Positions 259 through 23,097 of a DNA stretch of 23,756 nucleotides are shown in pieces; position 1 is the first letter of the stretch, and every line of letters begins with the position of its first letter. Origin of the DNA: a virus. Under the pieces are notes generated by a model that worked only from the letters and a program-made list of their open reading frames with translations, did no database searches and was not told the DNA's origin. The position numbers were made by a program, and so were the translations under genes. The DNA lies in the IMG/VR virus record IMGVR_UViG_3300043449_001463, positions 1-23,756 of that record; one strand, 5' to 3'.

Positions 259-1380
259 ATGAAAACAAAATTAGAATATATTTGGTTAGATGGTTACACA
301 CCCGAACCAAATTTAAGAAGTAAAATTAAAGTTATTGACGGAGGAATTTCGGATTTGTCACAAGTACCTGAATGGAATTTTGATGGTTCATCTACATTAC
401 AAGCTGAAGGTAATAATTCTGATTGTATATTAAAACCTGTTAGATTATATCGTGAAATTGGGCAGAATGGTAAAGTATATGTTTTATGTGAAGTTATGAA
501 TCCTGATGGTACTCCTCATGAAACAAACCAAAGGGTTAAATTAGGAGAAGAAGATAGTGGTATGTGGTTTGGTTTTGAACAAGAATACTTTATTAGAGAA
601 GGTAAAAATAAACCTGTGTTAGGTCATAGTAGTGGGTCAATTGAAGGTCAAGGTAAATATTATTGTGGTGTAGGTGCTAATGTAATCGGTAGAGATATTG
701 TTGAAGAACATATGGACCTATGTTTAAATATGGGTATTGGTATTACAGGTATGAATGCTGAGGTCGCTTTAGGGCAATGGGAGTATCAAGTATTTTCTAA
801 AGGGAAATTAAAAGCGGGTGATGACCTATGGATGAGTAGATATCTAATGGATAAACTATCTGAAAAATATGGTTATTATATTGAATATCATCCTAAACCT
901 TTGGCTTACGGAGAGTGGAATGGTTCAGGACTACACACGAACTTCTCAACCGAGAAGATGAGAAACGAAGGAGGGGAAAACTACTTTAATGTATTATTCA
1001 ATTCATTGGAATCAAGAAGACACAAACACATTGAAGTTTATGGTTCTGACAATGAACTTAGACTAACAGGTAGATTTGAAACACAAGCAATTGATAAATT
1101 CAGTTGGGGTGTTAGTGATAGAGGTTCATCTATCCGAGTACCTATGTCCACTGCTAAAGAATGGAAAGGTTATATTGAAGACAGAAGACCTGCTTCAAAT
1201 GCAAACCCATACGAAATTATCAAAGTTATTTCTGATACTATTAATATGGCAAATGAATTGGTAGAAACCACTCATAAAATGTATACTAATGTTGATATGA
1301 AAAACTTTGACGAAATTGCTAAAAAGTATAATGGGATGTTATCAAGTGAAGAATTATTAAACGAATATAAAGAAGATTAA
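259..1380 (+). CDS. glnII: Glutamine synthetase, eukaryotic/GSII-like type
   Basis: Predicted to make glutamine from glutamate, ammonia and ATP in the cytoplasm. The 373-residue protein looks complete. It has the N-terminal beta-grasp signature (VPEWNFDGSST, residues 36-46), the metal-site glutamates in GFEQEY (105-110), GMNAEVALGQWEYQV (164-178), the HPKPLAYGEWNGSGLHTN block (211-228), and the C-terminal NELRLTGRFET and RGSSIRVP to EDRRPASN blocks (265-314). Plant and animal enzymes usually have RR before LTG. Here the first Arg is Leu, but the second is kept. All other landmark residues I can check are present, so an active enzyme is likely. Length and motifs fit GSII, not the longer bacterial GSI or GSIII. 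It sits in an operon with DUF3310 and a DNA methyltransferase, one base before the next start. A complete glutamine synthetase is unusual cargo for a phage. It may support nucleotide synthesis or nitrogen supply during infection, which is inference. Confidence 0.95.
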   Translation: MKTKLEYIWLDGYTPEPNLRSKIKVIDGGISDLSQVPEWNFDGSSTLQAEGNNSDCILKPVRLYREIGQNGKVYVLCEVMNPDGTPHETNQRVKLGEEDSGMWFGFEQEYFIREGKNKPVLGHSSGSIEGQGKYYCGVGANVIGRDIVEEHMDLCLNMGIGITGMNAEVALGQWEYQVFSKGKLKAGDDLWMSRYLMDKLSEKYGYYIEYHPKPLAYGEWNGSGLHTNFSTEKMRNEGGENYFNVLFNSLESRRHKHIEVYGSDNELRLTGRFETQAIDKFSWGVSDRGSSIRVPMSTAKEWKGYIEDRRPASNANPYEIIKVISDTINMANELVETTHKMYTNVDMKNFDEIAKKYNGMLSSEELLNEYKED

Positions 1381-1381
1381 A

Positions 1382-1597
1382 ATGGAACAAGTTAATCATC
1401 CACAACATTACGGAGGTGAAGATAATCCGTATGAAGCTATTAAAGTAATTGACGCTTGGGGTTTAGGATTTAGTTTAGGTAATACTGTTAAGTATATTTC
1501 AAGAGCAGGAAAAAAAGATACTGATAAAGAACTACAAGACCTCAAAAAAGCACTTTGGTATTTACAACATCATATCGAAAAATTAGAGAAAAAATGA
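1382..1597 (+). CDS. DUF3310 (SaV-like) phage protein
   Basis: A 71-residue protein matching the DUF3310 pattern: VNHPQHY (residues 4-10) near the start, YEAIKVIDAWG, then NTVKYISRAGKKD and a C-terminal helix with DLKKALWYLQHHI. The family is common in tailed phages, often near nucleotide-metabolism genes, and its function is not established to my knowledge. The start follows the glutamine synthetase stop after one base. The stop overlaps the next start (ATGA, 1594-1597), so the genes are probably co-translated. Identity is confident from the motif spacing; the role is unknown. Confidence 0.9.
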   Translation: MEQVNHPQHYGGEDNPYEAIKVIDAWGLGFSLGNTVKYISRAGKKDTDKELQDLKKALWYLQHHIEKLEKK

Positions 1598-1809
1598 AAT
1601 TAAATGAACTTAAAGAATGGTTGAATTCTTTACCTGAAGAGTTTGGAGAATATCCTTGTGTAAATGGTGAAGAAACAAAAATTGATGAAGTTTATCATTA
1701 TCGAGTTGACAAACCAATAATTGCTGGTTATGTTGATGAAGAAACTAAAGAGGTGGTACTATGTCATCAATTAATAGAAAGAAATAATGGAGACGAACAA
1801 AATAATTAA
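1594..1809 (+). CDS. Small acidic protein of unknown function
   Basis: A 71-residue acidic protein beginning MKLNELKEWLNSLPEEF. An N-terminal amphipathic helix is followed by a region with alternating hydrophobic and charged residues (YRVDKPIIAGYVDEETKEVV). I chose ATG 1594 because it overlaps the DUF3310 stop as ATGA. A frame extension to 1555 would run into the DUF3310 gene. The 3' end overlaps the methyltransferase start by 23 bases, so translation is probably coupled. I do not recognise a named family. Confidence 0.8.
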   Translation: MKLNELKEWLNSLPEEFGEYPCVNGEETKIDEVYHYRVDKPIIAGYVDEETKEVVLCHQLIERNNGDEQNN

Positions 1810-2635
1810 TGGAAATTGTATTGAGGTAATGAAAACATTACCTGAAGGGAGTATTGATTTAGTCGTTACTAGCCCACCATATGGTGTCGGTATTAACTAT
1901 GATGTACATGAAGATGATGTTGAATTTGAAGAGTATAAAGTATTTGCTAAAGAGTGGTTAACTGAAACTTATAGAGTTTTAAAAGATGATGGGAGAATTG
2001 CTCTGAACATCCCATATGAAATTAATAGGCAGAAAAAAGGAGGTAGGATATTTTTTGTGTCCGAAATGTGGCAGATAATGAAAGAAATTGGATATGGGTT
2101 TTTTGGTGTTGTTGATTTGGAGGAAGATAGTCCTCATAGAAGTAAAACAACGGCTTGGGGTTCATGGATGAGTCCATCATCACCATACATTTATAACCCA
2201 AAAGAATGTGTCATACTCGCATATAAAAAACACCACATTAAAAAAGTTAAAGGAGAACCACAATGGAAGGGAATACCTACAGAAATTGAAGTTGAAGAAG
2301 GTGTAACAAAAATGAAAACAGTTTATGCTGAAGAAGATAAAAAAGATTTCATCAGTTTAGTTTATGGTCAATGGAAATACTTCGCAGATACTAAATCACT
2401 AACTAAGGCAACATTTTCAATGGACATCCCAACTAAAGCGATTAAAATATTATCATACAAAAATGATATTGTGTTGGACCCATTTGCTGGTTCGGGAACA
2501 AGTTTAGTAGCTGCAGAGATTTTAGATAGAAGATGGATTGGGATTGAATTATCACCTAATTATTGCCAAGTTGCGGAAACAAGAGTTAATTACTTTAGAA
2601 CGTTAGAACAAATTAAAGAAATCCCACAATTGTAA
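1787..2635 (+). CDS. DNA methyltransferase, beta-class (N4-cytosine or N6-adenine)
   Basis: Predicted S-adenosylmethionine-dependent modification of DNA bases. The 282-residue protein has the catalytic motif TSPPYGV (motif IV, residues 28-34) near the N-terminus and the cofactor-binding motif DPFAGSGTSL (motif I, 231-240) near the C-terminus, followed by RRWIGIELSPNYC. This motif order defines the beta class. The SPPY form is compatible with N4-cytosine or N6-adenine methylation. The target recognition region lies between the motifs, so the recognised sequence cannot be read off. No restriction enzyme is adjacent, so this is probably an orphan methylase that protects phage DNA from host restriction or marks it for regulation (inference). 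It is the last gene of its operon; its stop lies inside the loop of the terminator hairpin. Confidence 0.93.
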   Translation: METNKIINGNCIEVMKTLPEGSIDLVVTSPPYGVGINYDVHEDDVEFEEYKVFAKEWLTETYRVLKDDGRIALNIPYEINRQKKGGRIFFVSEMWQIMKEIGYGFFGVVDLEEDSPHRSKTTAWGSWMSPSSPYIYNPKECVILAYKKHHIKKVKGEPQWKGIPTEIEVEEGVTKMKTVYAEEDKKDFISLVYGQWKYFADTKSLTKATFSMDIPTKAIKILSYKNDIVLDPFAGSGTSLVAAEILDRRWIGIELSPNYCQVAETRVNYFRTLEQIKEIPQL

Positions 2636-2647: not shown

Positions 2648-2658
2648 ATTTATCTTGG

Positions 2659-2666
2659 TATTTATA
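2659..2666 (+). promoter_or_regulatory. TATTTATA box, candidate late-type promoter
   Basis: TATTTATA lies 15 bases before ATG 2682 and just after the preceding terminator, where a new transcript must begin. It matches the box seen 2-4 bases before many other starts in the window. It also lies inside a possible TTG-initiated extension of the downstream gene, which argues for the ATG start. The promoter role is inferred from position and recurrence. Confidence 0.55.
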
Positions 2667-2681
2667 GTAAAACATCTTATA

Positions 2682-3860
2682 ATGAAGAATAGTTTTATTA
2701 ATGAATCAGAACTTAAAAATAAGTTAACCCAAATATACGAGGAAGAACAACTAAGATATTTGAATAAAAAATGGGAAAAACTATCAGGTGCTGATAGGAC
2801 TTTTGTTATTGAAAGTTTAAAATCAATATACCCTGAAAAATCTTATTTATTAAAAGAATCAAGATGGTATAATACTGTTGGTGATATCGTAGGTATATTT
2901 GACCCTACAGGTATTGTTGACCTTGTAAACGGTATTAGTTATTGGAGACAAGGAGATAAACTTTTCGCAATACTTTCTTGGATATCAGTTTTACCTGTGT
3001 TAGGTGATTTAATTGCAAAACCTGTTGTAGGCTCAATGAAACTTGGTGGTAATGCGATAAAGGCATTTAGAACTGCATCGGCGGTAGGTGATGCTGCCAA
3101 AATTGCGGAAACTGCGAAAGCCGCTGGAGGACCAGTTGCTAAATTAGTATCATCCACACCAAAATGGGGAAGTACATTATTAGGTAAACTTGGTAAAAGT
3201 GGTAAAGCATCTAGTACTATGATGAAAGGTGTAACCGATTATGTTAAAGTATTTGATGATGCGGGTAAACTAATGAAAAATAGTAAAAAAGTTAAAAGTG
3301 CTATTGAGTTTGGTAAAGATGCTGCAAAACTTGGTAAAGGTTTTAAAGATGTTAGTAAGATAGGTAAAGGAGTCACAGGTGCCAAATCATTAGCCGCGGC
3401 TGAAAAAGCTCAGTTAGGTGTTTTGGCAAAACAAAATCCTGTTAGAATATTCCGAGACTATGGTACAGGTAAAAATAGTTGGCTTTCATTTATGAAATCA
3501 GATGCTAGTTTAGCGTCTAAATTTCAGGCAGGTGTACCAAGAATTTTTGGTGGAAATCCTGCAACTAGGTCTTTAATGAGAAGAACTAAATTTTATGCAG
3601 GGTTTTTAGATTGGTTGGGTATTGCTAATTTAGTCGGTCCTGAAGAACTTGAGACTGCGGTAGGAGGGGCCGATGAAGCAAATAAATTATATTCAGAATA
3701 TGCCCAATTACCTGAGGCTCAAAAATTATGGAATCAAGATATGGGAGGAGTTACATTACCACCACCAGTAACTTCAACAGAGACACCATCAGTTGCTAGT
3801 AAAGTTGCAAGTAGTGTTGGGATTGACCCTGTTAGTATATTAACAAAATTATTTATTTAA
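2682..3860 (+). CDS. Ala/Gly/Lys-rich protein with hydrophobic module and E-S-type N-terminus; possible internal virion protein
   Basis: A 392-residue protein. It starts MKNSFINESEL, one of the recurring N-termini in this window. A second site of the same kind, LLKES, occurs at residues 57-61. A hydrophobic module follows at about 68-115 (GIFDPTGIVDLVNGISYW, then LFAILSWISVLPVLGDL), resembling the helical-hairpin modules of some toxin and phage-internal proteins. Residues 115-250 are rich in Ala, Gly and Lys with repeated K-L-G-K and K-A-like units. The C-terminus has an LPPPV linker. I chose ATG 2682 because the upstream TTG would lie in the promoter box. The stop overlaps the DHH start. No enzyme motif is visible. 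A DNA- or membrane-interacting protein packaged in the head is a reasonable guess, not a demonstrated role. Confidence 0.8.
   Translation: MKNSFINESELKNKLTQIYEEEQLRYLNKKWEKLSGADRTFVIESLKSIYPEKSYLLKESRWYNTVGDIVGIFDPTGIVDLVNGISYWRQGDKLFAILSWISVLPVLGDLIAKPVVGSMKLGGNAIKAFRTASAVGDAAKIAETAKAAGGPVAKLVSSTPKWGSTLLGKLGKSGKASSTMMKGVTDYVKVFDDAGKLMKNSKKVKSAIEFGKDAAKLGKGFKDVSKIGKGVTGAKSLAAAEKAQLGVLAKQNPVRIFRDYGTGKNSWLSFMKSDASLASKFQAGVPRIFGGNPATRSLMRRTKFYAGFLDWLGIANLVGPEELETAVGGADEANKLYSEYAQLPEAQKLWNQDMGGVTLPPPVTSTETPSVASKVASSVGIDPVSILTKLFI
3850..3857 (+). promoter_or_regulatory. TATTTATT box before DHH gene
   Basis: TATTTATT lies two bases before ATG 3860, inside the last codons of the upstream gene. The spacing agrees with the other box-start pairs. 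It also encodes the terminal Leu-Phe-Ile, so the match could be partly coincidental. Confidence 0.4.
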
Positions 3861-5263
3861 TGAAAAGAATACTTAAAGAAAGTGGGTTAAGAGATATTCG
3901 AGATTTATCTAAAAGATACCCTAAAGCAGAAATATATTTTCATCAAGATTTAGATGGTGTTACTACGGCAATTGCTATGAAACATTATTTAGAGAATAAT
4001 GGGATTAAAGTTGTAGACGCTCATGTTATACAATATGGGGATAAAGAATTCTCAGTTAAAAAGAATGATGCTCAAGGAGATGTGATGCCAGTGTTAGTTG
4101 ATTTTGCACATGGTAAACCTATGTTTGTTATTCATACTGACCACCATGATAGACAAGCAGGTGCTGAGGATACAAAATCTAAATCTTTCAGACAATCTAG
4201 GTCTAACGTTGAGACAATATCTCAGATAGTGTCACCTAAAGACATTTTTTCAAGTGAAGACTTATTGTTAATATCAACAGTAGATTCGGCTAATTTTGCG
4301 GCGAATAAAATATCTGTTGATGACGTAATGAATTATTTGTTTAGATTAGATAAAGAACAATCATTACAAAGAAATAAAATGCTATTAGGGTTAGTTGCAA
4401 ATAAACTACTATTGGCATTTAAAAACAAACCAGGATTTTTAGAAGAGTTGGTTATGAAAACCACACCTTCGTTAATGAATTTGATACAAAACATTAAACG
4501 AATCATGGTTGAAAAAGGTTATACACCTGTTGAAAAACTTGAAAAAAATAAGTTGGACTACGTACAACAAATGAAATCACATCCTGATGTGAAAGTTATG
4601 GATAATGTAATAGTCCAATATGGAGGGGGAAGTATGATGCAACCTGGGTCCTACGATAGATACACCCCATTTAAAAATAACCCTGAAGCAGATTTCTTAG
4701 TAATTGCTTGGCCTTTAGGGTTAGTACAAGCGTCTTGTAATCCATATAAACAAGATAGAGAATTAAAAGGGGTTAATTTAGGTGAGATTGCACAAGAAGT
4801 TTTATCTAAATGGGAGGGACAACTTAAAAATAGAGACATACCATTATCGACAATAAAGTGGATTTCTGAATCCTCAAAAGAGTTCGGAGAACATTCGGTA
4901 GGGTTTACATTCAGAGATTTTGTGGCGATTTATGGCAACGACTTCAAGGAAGTTAAAGGGGGTAAAGAAACTTTAAAAGATATTGGTGAATTAATGAGTA
5001 GACCATTTAAATCATTAGATGATGAGGAGATGGATGTTTTAGATAGTATTAGTGTTACCGCTTGGGATGTAATACAAGCCAATAGTGGTGGACATAAATG
5101 TATAACTAATATTTCAGGGTTAAGTTATATGGGAAGAAACACTAGACCACCTAAAGGACCGTATAAGTACAACAAAGACAAAGATGATTCACCATATGTG
5201 AAGTTTACTAAAATGATACAAAATGAATTTGTTAAAGTTTTACAGAGTAAGATTAAAAGTTAA
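3860..5263 (+). CDS. DHH/DHHA1 phosphoesterase with E-S-type N-terminus
   Basis: Predicted metal-dependent phosphodiesterase of the DHH superfamily (RecJ, nanoRNase and cyclic-dinucleotide hydrolases). The 467-residue protein has HQDLDGVT (residues 28-35), a metal-binding Asp in VLVDFAH (D81), the signature HTDHHD (92-97), and the DHHA1 motif GGHKCI (410-414 region). Both domains are therefore present, separated by an unusually long middle region of about 300 residues. It begins MKRILKESGL, another of the shared N-termini. The start overlaps the previous stop (TAATG), and the 3' end overlaps the convergent DUF192 gene by 11 bases. The substrate cannot be told from sequence: single-stranded DNA, short RNA and cyclic dinucleotides are all family substrates. 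If it is packaged, it might act on host nucleotides or signalling molecules early in infection (speculative). Confidence 0.9.
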   Translation: MKRILKESGLRDIRDLSKRYPKAEIYFHQDLDGVTTAIAMKHYLENNGIKVVDAHVIQYGDKEFSVKKNDAQGDVMPVLVDFAHGKPMFVIHTDHHDRQAGAEDTKSKSFRQSRSNVETISQIVSPKDIFSSEDLLLISTVDSANFAANKISVDDVMNYLFRLDKEQSLQRNKMLLGLVANKLLLAFKNKPGFLEELVMKTTPSLMNLIQNIKRIMVEKGYTPVEKLEKNKLDYVQQMKSHPDVKVMDNVIVQYGGGSMMQPGSYDRYTPFKNNPEADFLVIAWPLGLVQASCNPYKQDRELKGVNLGEIAQEVLSKWEGQLKNRDIPLSTIKWISESSKEFGEHSVGFTFRDFVAIYGNDFKEVKGGKETLKDIGELMSRPFKSLDDEEMDVLDSISVTAWDVIQANSGGHKCITNISGLSYMGRNTRPPKGPYKYNKDKDDSPYVKFTKMIQNEFVKVLQSKIKS

Positions 5264-5594
5264 TAACGTCACCAACTTTAATCCCAAGCTTTTTACAAGT
5301 ACCACCACGAACTTCTAATATCATATCACCATCACCACAAAAGTTCTCACAATCTTCAGTAGTACACGGTTTACAATTATGATGTATTGACGTAATTTCA
5401 TCACCACTTATAAAGATAATATCTAAATTAATTATACAGTTTTTCATCCAAAAACAATGGTCACCATCTTTCATTAGGAATAACATACCATTAAAGGATG
5501 AATTAAAATCTCTTCCCATCATTCCTTTTTGAGTGTCTTTCTGTGAAAAGACCGTTTTAACTCTAAACTTTTTATCTTTTAATCTTATTATCAT
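5253..5594 (-). CDS. DUF192 family protein with Cys-rich insertion
   Basis: A 113-residue protein with the DUF192 pattern: KGMMGR (residues 23-28), GMLFLM, the signature FWMKNCIINLDIIFI (48-62) and a C-terminal LEVRGG to GIKVGD. DUF192 proteins are small beta-rich proteins of unclear biochemical role, often secreted. This one has no signal peptide, so it is probably cytoplasmic or virion-associated. It carries an unusual number of cysteines (47, 53, 74, 77, 82, 86, 100), four of them in a short insertion before the end that could hold metal or disulfides. I chose the ATG at 5594 because TATTTATA ends three bases upstream. It is the only minus-strand gene in the first 17.6 kb and is convergent with the DHH gene. 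Confidence 0.88.
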   Translation of the reverse strand: MIIRLKDKKFRVKTVFSQKDTQKGMMGRDFNSSFNGMLFLMKDGDHCFWMKNCIINLDIIFISGDEITSIHHNCKPCTTEDCENFCGDGDMILEVRGGTCKKLGIKVGDVINF

Positions 5595-5597
5595 ACT

Positions 5598-5605
5598 TAT
5601 AAATA
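5598..5605 (-). promoter_or_regulatory. TATTTATA box before DUF192 gene
   Basis: On the minus strand TATTTATA ends three bases before the ATG at 5594. Read on the plus strand it is TATAAATA, identical to the T4 late -10 element, and lies 14 bases before the NUDIX start at 5620. It could therefore serve either or both divergent genes. Confidence 0.55.
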
Positions 5606-5619
5606 TATACATTTCCCTA

Positions 5620-6036
5620 ATGAAACAAAGTAAAAGATTTGCTGGTATTCTTGTAAAAGTTGGTGATGAGGTTTTGATGTGTCAAAGAAATTACAAAGGG
5701 GATATGCCAGGAGCTTGGTCAATACCTTGTGGTCATTTAGAAAATGATGAAAATGCAGTAGACGGTGCTAAAAGAGAATTTTTTGAAGAAACAAATATCG
5801 ATATTGATGGTAAAATAAAATTAGTTGGTTTTATGAATGGAAAAACAAAAGGTAAAAATGATTCAGATGGATTGTTCCATGTTTTTCTATACGAACCTAA
5901 TGAAAAAATTAAACCTGATTTAAATAATGCTCAAGACGGAGACGAACATTTAGGTTGTAGATATTACACTTTAAATAATTTACCAATAAGTGAAGAAACT
6001 CAATTATATGGTATTATTAAAAAAATTTTAAAATAA
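5620..6036 (+). CDS. NUDIX hydrolase
   Basis: Predicted hydrolysis of a nucleoside diphosphate linked to another moiety. The 138-residue protein has a near-perfect NUDIX box at residues 38-60: G38, E44, R52, E53, E56 and E57 all fit GX5EX7REUXEEXGU, with Asn59 in place of the last Gly. MPGAWSIPCGHLE before the box is typical of MutT-like members. The substrate may be an oxidised or non-canonical NTP, a dinucleotide or a nucleotide sugar. I chose ATG 5620 because the longer frame reaches into the divergent DUF192 gene. It is divergent from DUF192 with a 25-base gap containing the TATAAATA/TATTTATA element. It is likely monocistronic, since a T-rich stretch and a candidate RNA follow. Confidence 0.92.
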   Translation: MKQSKRFAGILVKVGDEVLMCQRNYKGDMPGAWSIPCGHLENDENAVDGAKREFFEETNIDIDGKIKLVGFMNGKTKGKNDSDGLFHVFLYEPNEKIKPDLNNAQDGDEHLGCRYYTLNNLPISEETQLYGIIKKILK

Positions 6037-6174: not shown

Positions 6175-6600
6175 ATGAAGAATAAAGTTCGTATTGAAAA
6201 TAGAAAAGTTAAATTTGAGTATTTTATTGAGGAAAAGTTTTCTGTTGGAATTAAATTAACAGGTGTTGAGGTTAAAAGAATTAGAGAGGGTAAAATCTCA
6301 ATGACTGACTCATTTTGTTACTTTAACAACGGAGAATTATTCATGAAGAATGCTTTAATCCAAGGAATTGGAAACGATAACATTGGTAGAGATAGAAAAC
6401 TTCTATTAAAGAAAAAAGAACTAAAAAAACTTGAATCTGAATTAATTAAGGGATATACCATTATACCTCATATTCTTTATGAAAATGATAAAGGTTTATT
6501 AAAACTTGAAATTGTATTAGCCAAAGGTAAAAAACTTTGGGACAAACGTAATACAATTAAGGAACGAGACATTAGTAGAGAATTAAAAAAAGAATATTAG
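6175..6600 (+). CDS. smpB: SsrA-binding protein SmpB
   Basis: SmpB binds tmRNA and brings it to stalled ribosomes for trans-translation. The 141-residue protein is close to family length, with IENRKVKFEY (residues 7-16), GIKLTGVEVKRIREGKIS (25-42, usually GTEVKSLR), RDRKLLLKKKE (about 72-82), KGYTIIPH, and the C-terminal GKKLWDKRNTIKERDISRELK that enters the mRNA channel. It looks complete and functional. No tmRNA gene is visible in the window, so it would have to use host or distantly encoded tmRNA. It has its own host-type promoter and is followed after one base by a small gene. A phage-encoded SmpB is uncommon. It might modify ribosome rescue or RNase recruitment during infection (inference). 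Confidence 0.93.
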   Translation: MKNKVRIENRKVKFEYFIEEKFSVGIKLTGVEVKRIREGKISMTDSFCYFNNGELFMKNALIQGIGNDNIGRDRKLLLKKKELKKLESELIKGYTIIPHILYENDKGLLKLEIVLAKGKKLWDKRNTIKERDISRELKKEY

Positions 6601-8207: not shown

Positions 8208-8380
8208 AGTATTTTAAATTGTTTTTGATGTGGTTGGGATTTGTTGCCATCACATCGTATTTTGGCGAATATATCGTCAGTAGAGAAGTTAATGGAGGAG
8301 TACAACTGTTATGTTTCGTTGGTGTTGTAGGACTCTTGATTTATATGATTAACGAAACACTTAAATTTTTAAAAAAATAA
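8204..8380 (+). CDS. Small two-helix membrane protein
   Basis: A 58-residue protein starting at ATG 8204, which overlaps the previous stop as ATGA, and ending at TAA 8378-8380. It has two hydrophobic segments: about 3-20 (YFKLFLMWLGFVAITSYF) and 33-50 (VQLLCFVGVVGLLIYMI), joined by a short polar loop, with a Lys-rich C-terminus. This is a typical small double-spanning membrane protein. It lies six bases before the SPFH gene. No family is recognised. Confidence 0.72.
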   Translation: MKYFKLFLMWLGFVAITSYFGEYIVSREVNGGVQLLCFVGVVGLLIYMINETLKFLKK

Positions 8381-8386
8381 AAAAAA

Positions 8387-9331
8387 ATGATTAGTACTTT
8401 AATTTTTGTATTAGGATTGGCAATTGCCTTATTTGTAGCTTTCACTACAAGAGACCAAATGTATACCGTTGAAGAAGGTAGATATGGGGATATTCGAACA
8501 TTTAAAATATCATGGTTATTTAAACCCATTGGAATATTTTTAGTCGGTTTAATTACCTCATCAGTTCAGCCCTTCGCGTTAGAAAGAGTTGATGCAGGAC
8601 ATGTAGGTATCAAAGTTAATTTAACAGGTGATAAACGAGGGGTATCTAACTATGAATATAAAACAGGTTGGGTTCTATATAATACATGGACCGAACAAAT
8701 GTTAGAGTTCCCTACTTATCAACAACACATTGAATACAAAGACCAAACTGTAATTACTAAAGGTGGATTTGCGGCAACAATTAAACCAAGTTTTAACTAT
8801 TCACTTAAACCTACGGCAATTGGTAATATGTTTGAAAATTTGAGATTGGATATAAAACAAATTGAACAAGGATGGTTGATGAATGCTATTGTATCTTCAG
8901 TAAATGACGTGGCAAATAAATGGGAGGTTGACGCAATATTCAATAAACGAGAAGAGTTTGAAGCAGCAATTGTTACAGAGTGTAATAAAAGATTATCTAA
9001 GTGGTTTGAAGTATCTCAATTGAGAACAAATATCACACCACCAAAGGCTCTACAACAAGCTATCGAATCTAAAACAAAGGCGGTTCAGGAGGCACAGGCG
9101 GCGATGCAACGTAAGTTAGTTGCTGAGGCAGAAGCACAAGAAAAAATTGCAATCGCTCGTGGTGATTCTGCTAAAGTTATAATTGACGCACAAGCATTGG
9201 CCTTGGCGATGAAATTAAAACAAAAAGAAATCACTCCATTATATGTTGAGTATATAAAGGCACAGGCTTGGGATGGTAAACTACCAACAACAGTTGCAGG
9301 TGGTTCGGGTACTTTCCTAAATATAAAATAA
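8387..9331 (+). CDS. Prohibitin-like SPFH-domain membrane protein
   Basis: Prohibitins and other SPFH proteins form large ring- or cage-shaped membrane assemblies. This 314-residue protein has a hydrophobic segment at 2-19, a second at about 46-62, then an SPFH domain beginning ERVDAGHVGIKVNL (66-79). The typical Ala/Glu/Lys-rich coiled coil follows (TKAVQEAQAAMQRKLVAEAE and after) and ends in a short hydrophobic tail. Two membrane segments before the SPFH domain is more than the single one of classical prohibitins. It is the last gene of an operon with two small membrane proteins and is followed by a strong terminator. Phage prohibitin homologues are known from some large phages; a role in protecting or remodelling the host membrane is inference. 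Confidence 0.88.
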   Translation: MISTLIFVLGLAIALFVAFTTRDQMYTVEEGRYGDIRTFKISWLFKPIGIFLVGLITSSVQPFALERVDAGHVGIKVNLTGDKRGVSNYEYKTGWVLYNTWTEQMLEFPTYQQHIEYKDQTVITKGGFAATIKPSFNYSLKPTAIGNMFENLRLDIKQIEQGWLMNAIVSSVNDVANKWEVDAIFNKREEFEAAIVTECNKRLSKWFEVSQLRTNITPPKALQQAIESKTKAVQEAQAAMQRKLVAEAEAQEKIAIARGDSAKVIIDAQALALAMKLKQKEITPLYVEYIKAQAWDGKLPTTVAGGSGTFLNIK

Positions 9332-10118: not shown

Positions 10119-10895
10119 ATGAAAAACATTTTAATATCTGAAAAACAATTAGAAGATTTAGTTAAGACTTTAAAGGAAAGTCCTGAAGATGAATTGGATG
10201 AAGGTTTTTTAGGTGATTTAGGTAGAGATATTGGAACATTAAGTTTTGGTAATATTTTTGCAGGGATTAAAGGGGCTTTTAAAGGAAAAGGTTATAATTT
10301 GGGTAGAAGTATGAATATTGTAAAAAATTCATTAAAGAAAATTAAAAGAACCCAAAACTCAATGCTGGCGGCTATGAAAGAACTAAAACATGTTGAAGTT
10401 GAGTTTAGTGAGTTAGAATCTAATGACCCTGTAGTTTATAAAATATTAAATAATTTAAGAAACACAATCTCATATTACGATGGATATAAAACATCAGTAA
10501 CTAATTTAGATTCAATTATCGAAGAATATTACAAATTAGAGAAAGAAGGTAAAAAAGACGATAAATCATCTTTTTCATCATACGAAAAACCTGTTAAAAC
10601 ATTTACACTTAACCCAAAATTAAAACCTGATACAACAGAACCAAAAAAAGACGAACCTTCAATCGGAAAACCAGATACTACGATGGAAAAAAATAAGTTA
10701 GAAGATTATTTTTATGATTGGATATCAGGTATGTATAAATTAGATGGTGATGATTTAATTTATTATTTAACTGCAAGAAAAACATGGGAAGTACGTAAAC
10801 CTGGTGGTAACTTTAATCCATTAAAAGAAACTTTTAAAAATAAAGAAGATTATAACGAAAAATTAAAAGAACTTAAAAACGCCAAAAGAGCATGA
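10119..10895 (+). CDS. Unknown protein with shared ISEKQLE N-terminal peptide
   Basis: A 258-residue protein. Its first 20 residues (ISEKQL, then LVKTLKE) are nearly the same as those of the next gene, while the rest differ. LKE-S at 18-21 and LDE-G at about 26-29 are both of the (L/I)-x-E form cut by T4-type prohead proteases. A Gly-rich hydrophobic stretch at about 29-57 (GFLGDLGRDIGTLSFGNIF) is followed by a helical region, a Pro/Lys-rich linker at about 150-195 and a compact C-terminal domain. No family is recognised. The stop overlaps the next start (ATGA, 10892-10895). It is probably processed and packaged (inference). Confidence 0.78.
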   Translation: MKNILISEKQLEDLVKTLKESPEDELDEGFLGDLGRDIGTLSFGNIFAGIKGAFKGKGYNLGRSMNIVKNSLKKIKRTQNSMLAAMKELKHVEVEFSELESNDPVVYKILNNLRNTISYYDGYKTSVTNLDSIIEEYYKLEKEGKKDDKSSFSSYEKPVKTFTLNPKLKPDTTEPKKDEPSIGKPDTTMEKNKLEDYFYDWISGMYKLDGDDLIYYLTARKTWEVRKPGGNFNPLKETFKNKEDYNEKLKELKNAKRA

Positions 10896-11203: not shown

Positions 11204-11235
11204 TTTGATTATTTAAAACCTTTGTTGTATGTTTA
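11204..11235 (+). promoter_or_regulatory. Possible host-type promoter overlapping the terminator
   Basis: TTTG at 11204-11207, a 20-base spacer and TATGTTTA at 11228-11235 (seven of eight to TAnnTTTG) overlap the terminator hairpin; the -7 box sits mainly in its loop. The epimerase gene needs a promoter here, and no better one is seen. Weak evidence. Confidence 0.35.
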
Positions 11236-11251
11236 TAACAAAGGTTTTTTT
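11215..11251 (+). terminator. Intrinsic terminator with possible promoter in its loop
   Basis: A 12-pair stem AAAACCTTTGTT/AACAAAGGTTTT (11215-11226 with 11237-11248) has a ten-base loop and is followed by T's. It ends the 9433-11194 unit. The downstream epimerase ATG is the base right after the T tract, so an in-frame TTG at 11222 inside the stem is not the start. Confidence 0.88.
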
Positions 11252-11788
11252 ATGGAATATCCACAACAATACAACAATCCTGTATTCGTAGACAATAGAG
11301 GTACATTCGCACCACTTTCTCTCGACTATACTGACAGTTTTAGAATTATACTTAATAAAAAATGGATTCAAAGTAACATTAGTCATAACCCATTAAAGTA
11401 TACTTTAAGAGGGTTACATTTTCAAATTGGGGAATATGCTCAAGCTAAACTAATTAAAGTTATTACAGGTGGTATTATTGATTTTGTAATGGATATTAGG
11501 GAAGAGTCACCTGAATATTTAAAATTACATATTTTTAAATTAGAACCTGGTGATGAATTGATTGTCCCACGAGGATATGCTCACGGATTCCTAACCACCG
11601 AAAATAATACAATAGTCCAATACTTAGTTGATAATGTTTATTCACCACAAAATGAGGGTATCATCAGTTATTTAGATGTTGATAATTTATTAGATAGGTT
11701 AAAAGAAAAATTACCAATGGAACCTAATTTAAAGAGTAAAATAATTATTCACCAAAAAGATTTATTAACCAAAAATTTTAAAAAATGA
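11252..11788 (+). CDS. dTDP-4-dehydrorhamnose 3,5-epimerase-like protein (RmlC family)
   Basis: RmlC epimerises a dTDP-linked keto sugar in deoxysugar synthesis. The 178-residue protein fits the family length and cupin fold: DNRGTF (residues 14-19), KWIQSNISHN, the core TLRGLHFQ with catalytic His56, AQAKLIKVITGGIIDFVMDIREESPEY (64-89), IVPRGYAHGF (104-113) and the YSPQNEG turn. The active-site His is present. No rmlA, rmlB or rmlD lies nearby, so it either feeds into a host sugar pathway or acts on a related sugar. The start at 11252 directly follows the T tract. The stop overlaps the next start (ATGA, 11785-11788). A role in altering host surface polysaccharide or in phage glycosylation is possible, not shown. 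Confidence 0.9.
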   Translation: MEYPQQYNNPVFVDNRGTFAPLSLDYTDSFRIILNKKWIQSNISHNPLKYTLRGLHFQIGEYAQAKLIKVITGGIIDFVMDIREESPEYLKLHIFKLEPGDELIVPRGYAHGFLTTENNTIVQYLVDNVYSPQNEGIISYLDVDNLLDRLKEKLPMEPNLKSKIIIHQKDLLTKNFKK

Positions 11789-17635: not shown

Positions 17636-18023
17636 CCATTCTAACCCATTGACTACCACCAGTACTATTAGGATTTTTACCGTGCATAACCTCTAACTCA
17701 TCAATCCAATCAAATATCTTAATACCATATGAGTTGTAGACCTCAATTTGATAATCATTACTTTTAATTGGTAATTTATTAAATGGTATCAGTTTTGTAA
17801 AATAATCTCTAACATAGTGGTCAATCGCCCAAAAAACATCTACCTCATCATATAAATTTTCTTTGGTTATAGGTTCATTAATATAAAATTTATAAACCAT
17901 ATACGGCTCGCGACCATCATAAGATAAATCAATATCAATATGGTCAAGAGAAGGATATACTGAACCCGACAATGTCGAGTTCATTATCTTTTTAAGGGCG
18001 ATTAACTCACTTTCTATTGTCAT
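17619..18023 (-). CDS. Unknown small protein downstream of amidase
   Basis: A 134-residue protein whose start overlaps the amidase stop (TAATG, 18021-18025), so it is translated with the amidase. Features include DHIDIDLSYDGREPYMVYKFYI and DVFWAIDHYVRDYF. It is predicted alpha/beta and slightly acidic, with no signal peptide. It could be an accessory of the lysis protein or unrelated; nothing in the sequence decides. Confidence 0.75.
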   Translation of the reverse strand: MTIESELIALKKIMNSTLSGSVYPSLDHIDIDLSYDGREPYMVYKFYINEPITKENLYDEVDVFWAIDHYVRDYFTKLIPFNKLPIKSNDYQIEVYNSYGIKIFDWIDELEVMHGKNPNSTGGSQWVRMANRNK

Positions 18024-18901
18024 TATAAACTTAATAACATATCAATTAAATCAGGGTGTGGATACATATCTACTTTCCCTCTAATAACATTTGTATGTGT
18101 ATATAATCCAGGAATCTTCTCAGCTCTTGAAACATCTAAAACATCAAAACCATCAGCTCCTTTATCTTTAACATACTCAACTAAACCAACTCTAGGGTCA
18201 ATAGAATATTTTTCAGCAACGAATAGAATCCAATTCTTAAGAGTTATTATCTGTGAATCAGAGTAATTGTGCCAATATTGATAACCTCTAAATGGTTTCG
18301 CTAACTTGATTATTTGACTTTCATCCGCAGGAGTGTTAACGTAAGTTTTACCATTAACAATTTGACCCATACAACACACCTCAATTGCAACAGAGTTTCT
18401 GTGCATTACTGAATTACCTGTACCTGTATGCCAACCATAACCTCCTTCAGGAAAACATTGAACTAATTCACCATCAAATTTACTCGAAGAACCATTGACT
18501 GATTGTCCACCTAAAATATACTCAGTACCTACATTACCTCTACTATCTCTAGCCCACATATCGGCCACTTGATAAGGATTAGGACCTCCTGCAGTATGGT
18601 GTAAGAAAATCCATTGTTTAGGAACGGGACCTTTGAAGTAAGTACCTTCAGGCATATAGTATTTCTTAATACTTAATGCTTTTGATGCCTCGATGTTTTC
18701 CGCATTGTCAGTATTCAAAATACCCATATGAGCCCAAGTCTTAGGACCAACAACTCCATCAACAACAAGACCATTCTTTTTTTGATAATTTTTAACCGCG
18801 GTTTCAGTTTTAGGACCAAAGTCACCATCAACTGTAATTTTAAGGAACTCCTGAAGAGTTTTAACCGATTCACCCTTACTTCCTTTTTTTAATACTTGCA
18901 T
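18023..18901 (-). CDS. N-acetylmuramoyl-L-alanine amidase with peptidoglycan-binding domain (endolysin)
   Basis: Predicted to cut the bond between N-acetylmuramic acid and the stem peptide of the cell wall. The 292-residue protein has an N-terminal peptidoglycan-binding domain (about residues 3-58, with VDGDFGPKT and VDGVVGPKTW) and a C-terminal Amidase_2 domain. The zinc ligands are likely His101 (IFLHHTAGG), His269 (YTHTN) and Asp278 (GKVDMYPHPDL), with a catalytic Lys276 before it. No signal peptide is visible, so export would need a holin or it acts as a virion enzyme; no holin is adjacent. The start at 18901 was chosen as the first ATG; the longer frame reaches into the neighbouring gene. 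It precedes the 134-residue gene in a coupled pair. Confidence 0.93.
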   Translation of the reverse strand: MQVLKKGSKGESVKTLQEFLKITVDGDFGPKTETAVKNYQKKNGLVVDGVVGPKTWAHMGILNTDNAENIEASKALSIKKYYMPEGTYFKGPVPKQWIFLHHTAGGPNPYQVADMWARDSRGNVGTEYILGGQSVNGSSSKFDGELVQCFPEGGYGWHTGTGNSVMHRNSVAIEVCCMGQIVNGKTYVNTPADESQIIKLAKPFRGYQYWHNYSDSQIITLKNWILFVAEKYSIDPRVGLVEYVKDKGADGFDVLDVSRAEKIPGLYTHTNVIRGKVDMYPHPDLIDMLLSL

Positions 18902-18920
18902 AATTTTAATTATTAATTGT

Positions 18921-19286
18921 TTATTGTACGTATACTGTTTTAACTGGTTGACCAAATGTCAATTCAAACCATTCTTTAATGTAATCCTCAAATAATGAAT
19001 CATCACCAAATACTTTTCGCATATTGGATGAAGAATAAACGATTAAAGTTGGTAAAGACTCAAGTTCAATATCTGACCAATCCTCGGTATTAGACTGCTC
19101 TTCGGGATAATAATCAAATACACTAAAACCATCTTCAGATTCGAATGATATTGCGTCAACAGAAACACCCTCACCCCAGTCAAATATACTTTCCTCATTC
19201 ATTTTTAAAGTATGTGGTTTGTATTCAGAATTGAAGTAATCAAAAAAGACTTTTTTCAGTTTTGACTCTGTAAGAATGTATTTCAT
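18921..19286 (-). CDS. Small acidic protein with LTES N-terminus, paralogue of 20753 gene
   Basis: A 121-residue acidic protein that begins MKYILTESKLKKVFFDYFNSE and ends with a helix and YIKEWFELTFG. The gene at 20753-21136 has the same beginning and a similar ending (YVKEWINNKFN), with a diverged middle, so they are paralogues. The start, three to four bases from a TATTTATT box on the minus strand, is one side of a divergent element. It lies upstream of the amidase. The function is unknown. Confidence 0.8.
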   Translation of the reverse strand: MKYILTESKLKKVFFDYFNSEYKPHTLKMNEESIFDWGEGVSVDAISFESEDGFSVFDYYPEEQSNTEDWSDIELESLPTLIVYSSSNMRKVFGDDSLFEDYIKEWFELTFGQPVKTVYVQ

Positions 19287-21780: not shown

Positions 21781-22376
21781 TAACACAAACAATATCAAGA
21801 GTTGAATTACTTTGTCCTCATACACAGGATAAAAGAACTATTATGTTAAATAAAATTCTAAATAATATTGTTGGTGCTAAAGACTACCAAAGACATGATG
21901 TGTATTGTGAATTTAGATGTTATGCACCCAATCATGAATATTATTTCATTATAAAAACATTACACCAATATAACAATCCTGATATTTTATGTGAAAATGT
22001 ACACTTACTGATTGAACAGGTTTTGGATTGGTATGATTTATCTGATGTCCAAAATTTTGATGTTAAATTTGATGAAGGAGGTAGGATACATAAATGTACT
22101 TATTTTGATTTAGCTTGGTGGGGATATCACAGACGTTTGATGTCACATGGTTATAACACACCTTTTTACAGTGATGAGAAACGAAAAAAAATTTTTGAAT
22201 GGGGTAAACGTAAAATGGAAAGTGAGAAAAAAGAGTATGATGAAAAGATGATGAGGGCTTTAGGTGGTGGTCGAGCATTTTGTGATAATAGGGACCCAAT
22301 AATTATTCATAAACCTGAAGGTTTTATTATGAGAATTAAAAATAAATTAGTAAATTTGTGTCATGAGCTTGTTTAA
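21777..22376 (+). CDS. Unknown protein coupled to the 21193 gene
   Basis: A 199-residue protein starting in the stop of the gene before it (ATGA at 21777-21780). It has several Cys and His residues (ELLCPHTQ, YCEFRCYAPNHEYY, IHKCTYFDLAWWGYH) that might bind metal, and a charged helical end (SDEKRKKIFEWGKRKMESEKKE). Its last 14 bases overlap the start of the nucleotidyltransferase gene in another frame, and that gene's promoter lies inside its coding end. The function is unknown. Confidence 0.75.
   Translation: MITQTISRVELLCPHTQDKRTIMLNKILNNIVGAKDYQRHDVYCEFRCYAPNHEYYFIIKTLHQYNNPDILCENVHLLIEQVLDWYDLSDVQNFDVKFDEGGRIHKCTYFDLAWWGYHRRLMSHGYNTPFYSDEKRKKIFEWGKRKMESEKKEYDEKMMRALGGGRAFCDNRDPIIIHKPEGFIMRIKNKLVNLCHELV
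22351..22358 (+). promoter_or_regulatory. Host-type TAAATTTG box before nucleotidyltransferase
   Basis: TAAATTTG fits TAnnTTTG and ends four bases before ATG 22363. It lies inside the end of the previous gene. A good -33 is not seen. Confidence 0.4.
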
Positions 22377-23097
22377 ATTTTATGAGGTAGGTGGAAAAGT
22401 TAGGGATGAGATTTTAGGTCTTCAGTCTAAAGACGTGGATTATGTTGCAGTCCCTAACGACAACTTACTAGAAAAATATCAAGATGCTTATGAAATGTTT
22501 GTGGTATTAGAAACTTATTTAAAAAACGAGAAATTTGAGATTTTCTTATCAACTCCTGATTGTTTTACTATTAGAGCTAAATTCCCTAAAGGTCATAAGT
22601 ATCAAGGAGTTGCCGACTTTGTAATGGCTCGTAAAGAGATTGGGTATGTTCCTAATACAAGAACACCAATCGTTAAACCTGGTACATTATACGATGATTT
22701 GGAAAGAAGAGATTTCACTTTAAATGCTATGGCAAAGGATGAAGATGGCAGCATCATCGATTATTTTGGAGGAATGGAAGATTTAATTTCAGGGAAATTG
22801 AAAACACCATTAGAAACCGAAGTAACTTTCAATGACGACCCACTTCGTATTTTGAGAGCAATCCGTTTTGCAATCACTAAAGGTTTTAGTTTGAAACATT
22901 TGGATTACTACATTAATAATTATGATTATGAAAACAAGATGAAGGTAGTTTCATCTGAAAGAATCCGAGAAGAATTATTAAAGTGTTTTAAACATGATAC
23001 TATGGATACTTTGGATACTTTAAATGACTACCCAACACTTAAAAGATATATATTTGAAAATAAATTAATGTGGTTAAAACCAACAATGGAACAATAA
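22363..23097 (+). CDS. tRNA nucleotidyltransferase (CCA-adding)/poly(A) polymerase head domain protein
   Basis: Predicted class II nucleotidyltransferase that adds nucleotides to a tRNA or RNA 3' end. The 244-residue protein has GGKVRDEILG (residues 10-19), the metal-binding D-V-D at 24-26, the ERRDFTLNAMA motif (114-124) and FNDDPLRILRAIRF (156-169). All catalytic residues expected of the head domain are present. The family usually has about 400 or more residues. This one stops after the neck and lacks the body and tail that bind the tRNA. It may act on a different RNA, work with another subunit, or be a minimal version. It follows a gene pair of unknown function. Confidence 0.88.
   Translation: MSLFKFYEVGGKVRDEILGLQSKDVDYVAVPNDNLLEKYQDAYEMFVVLETYLKNEKFEIFLSTPDCFTIRAKFPKGHKYQGVADFVMARKEIGYVPNTRTPIVKPGTLYDDLERRDFTLNAMAKDEDGSIIDYFGGMEDLISGKLKTPLETEVTFNDDPLRILRAIRFAITKGFSLKHLDYYINNYDYENKMKVVSSERIREELLKCFKHDTMDTLDTLNDYPTLKRYIFENKLMWLKPTMEQ

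Follow-up and report, generated by a model that had tools for sequence, protein, structure and literature searches.

A type-II glutamine synthetase gene as a candidate auxiliary metabolic gene in a group of large phages

Gene content and viral setting of the locus

The DNA analysed here (the window) is an IMG/VR record of 23,756 bases, the ends of which are not closed. Near its start lies an open reading frame (ORF) for a type-II glutamine synthetase (GS; class GlnII/GSII) that begins with ATG and runs for 373 codons without an internal stop. The gene starts 3 bases after the preceding ORF, a single base separates its stop from the DUF3310 gene that follows, and the tight packing with DUF3310 and DNA methyltransferase genes that had been described in the initial annotation was upheld, both neighbours being confirmed by Pfam. 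The features of the window are collected in Table 1.

Table 1. Features of the window (nt positions; residue numbers refer to the GS protein)
Feature	Position	Strand	Remarks
Type-II glutamine synthetase (GlnII/GSII)	259–1380	+	373 aa; Pfam, NCBIfam and PDB matches
GS catalytic/ligand residues			D42, E107, E109, E168, E175, N221, H226, R268, E274, R288, R293, E307, R309, R310
C-terminal extension of phage GS, about residues 332–373	1252–1377	+	conserved in phage clade
DUF3310 protein	1382–1597	+	next gene, 1-base gap; adjoins GS in many related contigs
N6/N4 DNA methyltransferase	1787–2635	+	conserved neighbour
Cluster c13 protein, no assigned function	2655–3860	+	conserved neighbour
DHH-like protein	3860–5263	+	weak Pfam match below cut-off; conserved neighbour
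DUF192 protein	5253–5612	-	conserved neighbour, opposite strand
NUDIX hydrolase	5533–6036	+	conserved neighbour
SmpB, phage-encoded	6175–6600	+	143.9 bits; relatives in 30 viral loci
SPFH/Band-7 protein	8387–9331	+	
dTDP-sugar epimerase (RmlC-like)	11222–11788	+	
Peptidoglycan-binding + N-acetylmuramoyl-L-alanine amidase (endolysin)	18023–18955	-	supports viral origin
Phage-type tRNA nucleotidyltransferase	22363–23097	+	served to fetch wider phage group

No capsid or terminase gene was recognised among the ORFs of the window, so its assignment to a virus rests on shared gene content and gene order. A protein-guided scan of viral contigs recovered 122 stretches encoding GS relatives; the 80 that were kept are 61–95% identical to the window GS, and several of the relatives lie on contigs of 274–304 kb. 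Five long GS-bearing contigs (G007, G009, G010, G019 and G020; 290–311 kb) each carry a terminase gene and a T4 gp23-type major capsid gene. One of them, G010 (304,365 bases; loci L067 and L249), has GS and methyltransferase genes at both ends with the same spacing. Its two GS copies are clearly different in the tree, and the arrangement is explained either by a tandem duplication that spans a circular junction or by mixing of sequences in the assembly.

The missing capsid and terminase genes might suggest that host chromosomal DNA had been misassigned to a virus, or that the assembly is chimeric, but this is scarcely credible, as relatives of 41 of the 43 window ORFs occur elsewhere among viral contigs, dozens of contigs repeat the gene order, the long GS-bearing contigs carry the capsid and terminase genes named above, and no cellular relative exceeds 58% identity among the matches listed. 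Host contamination was ruled out on the basis of cellular identity, recurrent synteny and the count of viral relatives. Neither nesting among host GS sequences nor host synteny was found when the tree and the gene order were checked, and the earlier view that the gene belongs to a viral genome and not to flanking host DNA is confirmed.

ORF clustering around GS in 87 loci revealed a recurrent block. Upstream of GS it comprises thioredoxin, glutaredoxin and several genes with no assigned function (c8, c26 or c19, c6, c2, c3 and c12), and downstream DUF3310, DNA methyltransferase, c13, the DHH-like protein, DUF192 (on the other strand) and NUDIX; DUF3310 comes directly after GS in 37 contigs. 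The block also occurs without the gene. In loci L251, L252, L254, L255 and L256 nothing of GS is present between the c2/c3/c12 side and DUF3310, and in L250 and L253 GS is present in the same block. Around DUF3310 in L251 (10993–13428) are genes for a DegT-type aminotransferase and an epimerase. In G007, which is the phage of L256, GS is located about 23 kb away and adjoins thymidylate synthase, as it also does in G020, so that this adjacency is seen in two distinct lineages. Among 15 contigs fetched via the tRNA nucleotidyltransferase and not via GS, four carry GS, a frequency that is a lower bound as many of the 15 are fragments. Since related phages keep the block without GS, or carry GS elsewhere, the gene is accessory and has undergone gain, loss and relocation among them. 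It is dispensable, given the sister phages that lack it, and the genes in L251 hint at a hotspot, around the GS/DUF3310 site, where metabolic genes are exchanged.

Elsewhere in the window, no tmRNA gene was found to accompany the phage SmpB gene, either in the window itself or in 43 related loci, so that the phage SmpB may act with the host tmRNA. Many window proteins (at 10119, 10892, 13070 and 16464, and at 18921 and 20753 on the minus strand) begin with a motif of the form MK-hydrophobic-[ST]E[SKN], which occurs at 10.7% of the N-termini of viral ORFs longer than 100 aa compared with 2.5% of internal stretches, and which we take to resemble a capsid-targeting or protease-processed leader.

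Class, origin and conservation of the enzyme

Both GSII domains were recognised by Pfam, the beta-grasp N-terminal domain (Gln-synt_N, 39.6 bits, cut-off 33.4, E = 4e-10) being followed by the catalytic C-terminal domain (Gln-synt_C, 72.1 bits, cut-off 24, E = 6e-20). In the NCBIfam ranking GlnII comes first; the match scores 339 bits and covers 331 of the 333 model positions, whereas the type I and type III models reach 60 and 38 bits, respectively. At 373 aa the subunit is also short, as in GSII. The GlnII score is below the 500 bits that NCBI uses as the naming cut-off for GlnII; as ordinary bacterial GSII (flavobacterial (Flavobacteriales), planctomycete and alphaproteobacterial sequences, 387–407 bits) also fall below it, it was not counted against membership of the class. 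The PDB sequences that match best are yeast, plant and Streptomyces enzymes of the GSII class, and animal GSII is also among the close matches.

The window GS is an intact GSII, the match being far beyond chance; this class assignment was set by the family-model scores, as both trees contain GSII rows only. In the careful tree it falls inside an all-virus clade of 15 rows (UFBoot 100 / SH-aLRT 97) within bacterial-type GSII, and a branch with 100/100 support sets it apart from yeast and plant GSII. A quick tree of 93 rows agrees. The initial annotation was therefore right in calling the gene a complete GSII, given the whole ORF, both Pfam domains and GlnII as the best model, but its description as eukaryotic-type does not hold, and a eukaryotic origin is ruled out by the tree.

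All 14 catalytic and ligand residues that were checked (Table 1) are kept in the window, in 89 of 89 viral sequences and in 80 of 80 cellular ones. Five of these are presumed site residues, assigned from general knowledge of GS. Residues were mapped to human GS via conserved motifs, the spacing of which agrees with the human numbering. The roles of the others are those given for human Asp63, Glu136, Glu196, Glu203, Glu305, Arg319, Arg324, Arg340 and Arg341 (PMC5192420). D42 and E274 of the window GS are the equivalents of Asp63 and Glu305, which act on ammonium in glutamine synthesis (PMC5192420).

An AlphaFold2 model of the protein (pLDDT 79.9, pTM 0.82) matched GSII structures, the best being Streptomyces 4bax (E = 2e-34). 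The median dN/dS of viral GS is 0.12 over 104 pairs, and the value for the window compared with its nearest relative is 0.10, which indicates that viral GS is under purifying selection. The reading frame is intact in nearly all viral copies; one relative, L010, is interrupted by an in-frame stop at 8342 but is otherwise intact, and is either affected by a sequencing error or a decaying copy. On the combined evidence of sequence and model, the window GS is taken as a predicted active glutamine synthetase.

The C-terminal tail

Past a conserved PY (residues 317–318), GS proteins of the tailed phage clade continue for 51–99 residues compared with 11–30 in cellular GSII, and the resulting tail of about 40 residues is missing from nearly all of the latter. 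The cellular exception is a GSII with a fused helix-hairpin-helix-like end; such a C-terminal extension, unlike the phage tail, is carried by a Saprospiraceae GSII of 452 aa (L169, ORF from about nt 2423). The earliest-branching member of the phage clade, L247, is without the tail. An ELLxEYxxD motif recurs in the phage tails, and AlphaFold2 predicts helices in this region at residues 317–343, 350–356 and 363–372, with low confidence after about residue 340. Within the tail pN/pS is about 0.1–0.4, i.e. pN is well below pS, and by this measure the tail is under constraint.

It is proposed that the tail is a phage-specific segment for regulation, assembly, docking or interaction. A more far-reaching idea, which is put forward tentatively and may well prove wrong, is that it is a control or docking module evolved by the phages, which would free GSII from host feedback or tie it to phage nucleotide synthesis, and would mark a distinct viral GSII subtype.

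Proposed role and comparison with known glutamine synthetases

The GS of the window is a metabolic gene flanked by phage genes within a phage genome, and its reading frame is open and evidently under selection, as would be expected of an auxiliary metabolic gene (AMG). Its complete ORF, intact residues, modelled fold, purifying selection, stable viral block and position in a virus-only clade together suggest that it probably encodes a catalytically competent bacterial-type GSII, supplying glutamine during infection.

Such an enzyme would assemble as a GSII decamer and would use ATP to join ammonia to glutamate, forming glutamine independently of the control that the host exerts on its own GS. 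The glutamine would feed host amidotransferases in purine, CTP and amino-sugar synthesis and could support translation, which would ease a nitrogen bottleneck at a time when a phage genome of about 300 kb is being made and a phage-encoded reductase is acting on ribonucleotides. Matches to ribonucleotide reductase were present in all 16 records tested, although weak in three. No class-I glutamine amidotransferase was found in 13 jumbo-phage contigs tested, and a class-II enzyme in only two of the 13, both without GS. As the GS-bearing phages lack amidotransferases of their own in the contigs tested, the product of GS would have to serve host enzymes, and a coupling of GS to phage-encoded glutamine amidotransferases was essentially absent in the contigs searched. 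The earlier proposal that the enzyme feeds nucleotide synthesis is thus plausible, being favoured by the thymidylate synthase neighbours of some copies and by the reductase in all records tested, and weakened by the near absence of phage glutamine amidotransferases.

A constrained, phage-specific tail with a recurring motif could also belong to a regulatory or decoy GS, one that binds the host GS or a nitrogen regulator, or drains glutamate, and so resets host nitrogen control, with the tail as the working part and catalysis secondary. The fully conserved catalytic site argues for retained catalysis, however, and a decoy is considered unlikely. GS-fold enzymes that use other amine substrates exist, and a ligase shifted in this way, to the synthesis of gamma-glutamyl-polyamines or gamma-glutamyl-amides and possibly with a part in modifying DNA or surfaces, would suit a gene found beside a DNA methyltransferase, beside thymidylate synthase in two lineages, and at a site where one GS-less relative has a sugar epimerase together with a DegT-type aminotransferase in the same stretch. 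Such a shift is given a slim chance, since the ammonium-site Asp and Glu and the remaining checked residues are unchanged in every viral copy, and GlnII is by far the best family model. That GS is a recently captured, non-functional passenger would agree with its patchy distribution among the contigs fetched via tRNA nucleotidyltransferase, but is very improbable in view of the diversity of the virus-only clade (61–95% identity), the low dN/dS and the frame kept in nearly all copies.

The results show a nitrogen-assimilation enzyme as a diverse, selected and swappable part of large phages and no stray host gene. If active, it would allow these phages to channel the ammonia of infected cells into glutamine, bearing on nitrogen flow in their waters, and the virus-only tail offers a concrete target for how a phage may keep GS outside host control.

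The nearest cellular relatives, among the matches listed in a scan of genome contigs, are GSII of Bacteroidota (Saprospiraceae, Flavobacteriales). These have the same class, domains and catalytic residues as the phage GS, but are only 50–58% identical, form a separate clade and nearly all lack the tail of about 40 residues. The best fold match, Streptomyces coelicolor GlnII (4bax), shares 44% identity with the window GS and has a shorter C-terminus. Three uncultured huge phages (LR756501, LR756502 and LR745206; 635–735 kb) also carry GSII, but their proteins are 45–55% identical to the window GS, are without the long tail and have two other placements in the tree. Since the huge-phage GSII falls elsewhere in the tree, GSII has probably entered phages on more than one occasion.

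Phage-borne GS is already known. The gene glnA is among the jumbo-phage AMGs listed in PMC13037316 and occurs in viromes (PMC9083009), and GS was reported in 2025 from 9 of 25 moraphages, jumbo aquatic phages with mainly Bacteroidota as hosts (PMC12619734). The case for a notable phage AMG therefore stands as regards a viral GS, but less so as regards novelty. The AMG section of PMC12619734 gives no GS class, GS tree, gene neighbourhood or C-terminal tail, and the GSII type, virus-only clade, swap-in locus and conserved tail were not found described. As in the relatives of the window, GS in the moraphages is carried by jumbo aquatic phages, of 200–307 kb (PMC12619734). The long relatives of the window (290–311 kb, GS present) agree with them in size and GS content, and the moraphage GS very likely corresponds to the gene described here, the phages being of one lineage or of sister lineages.
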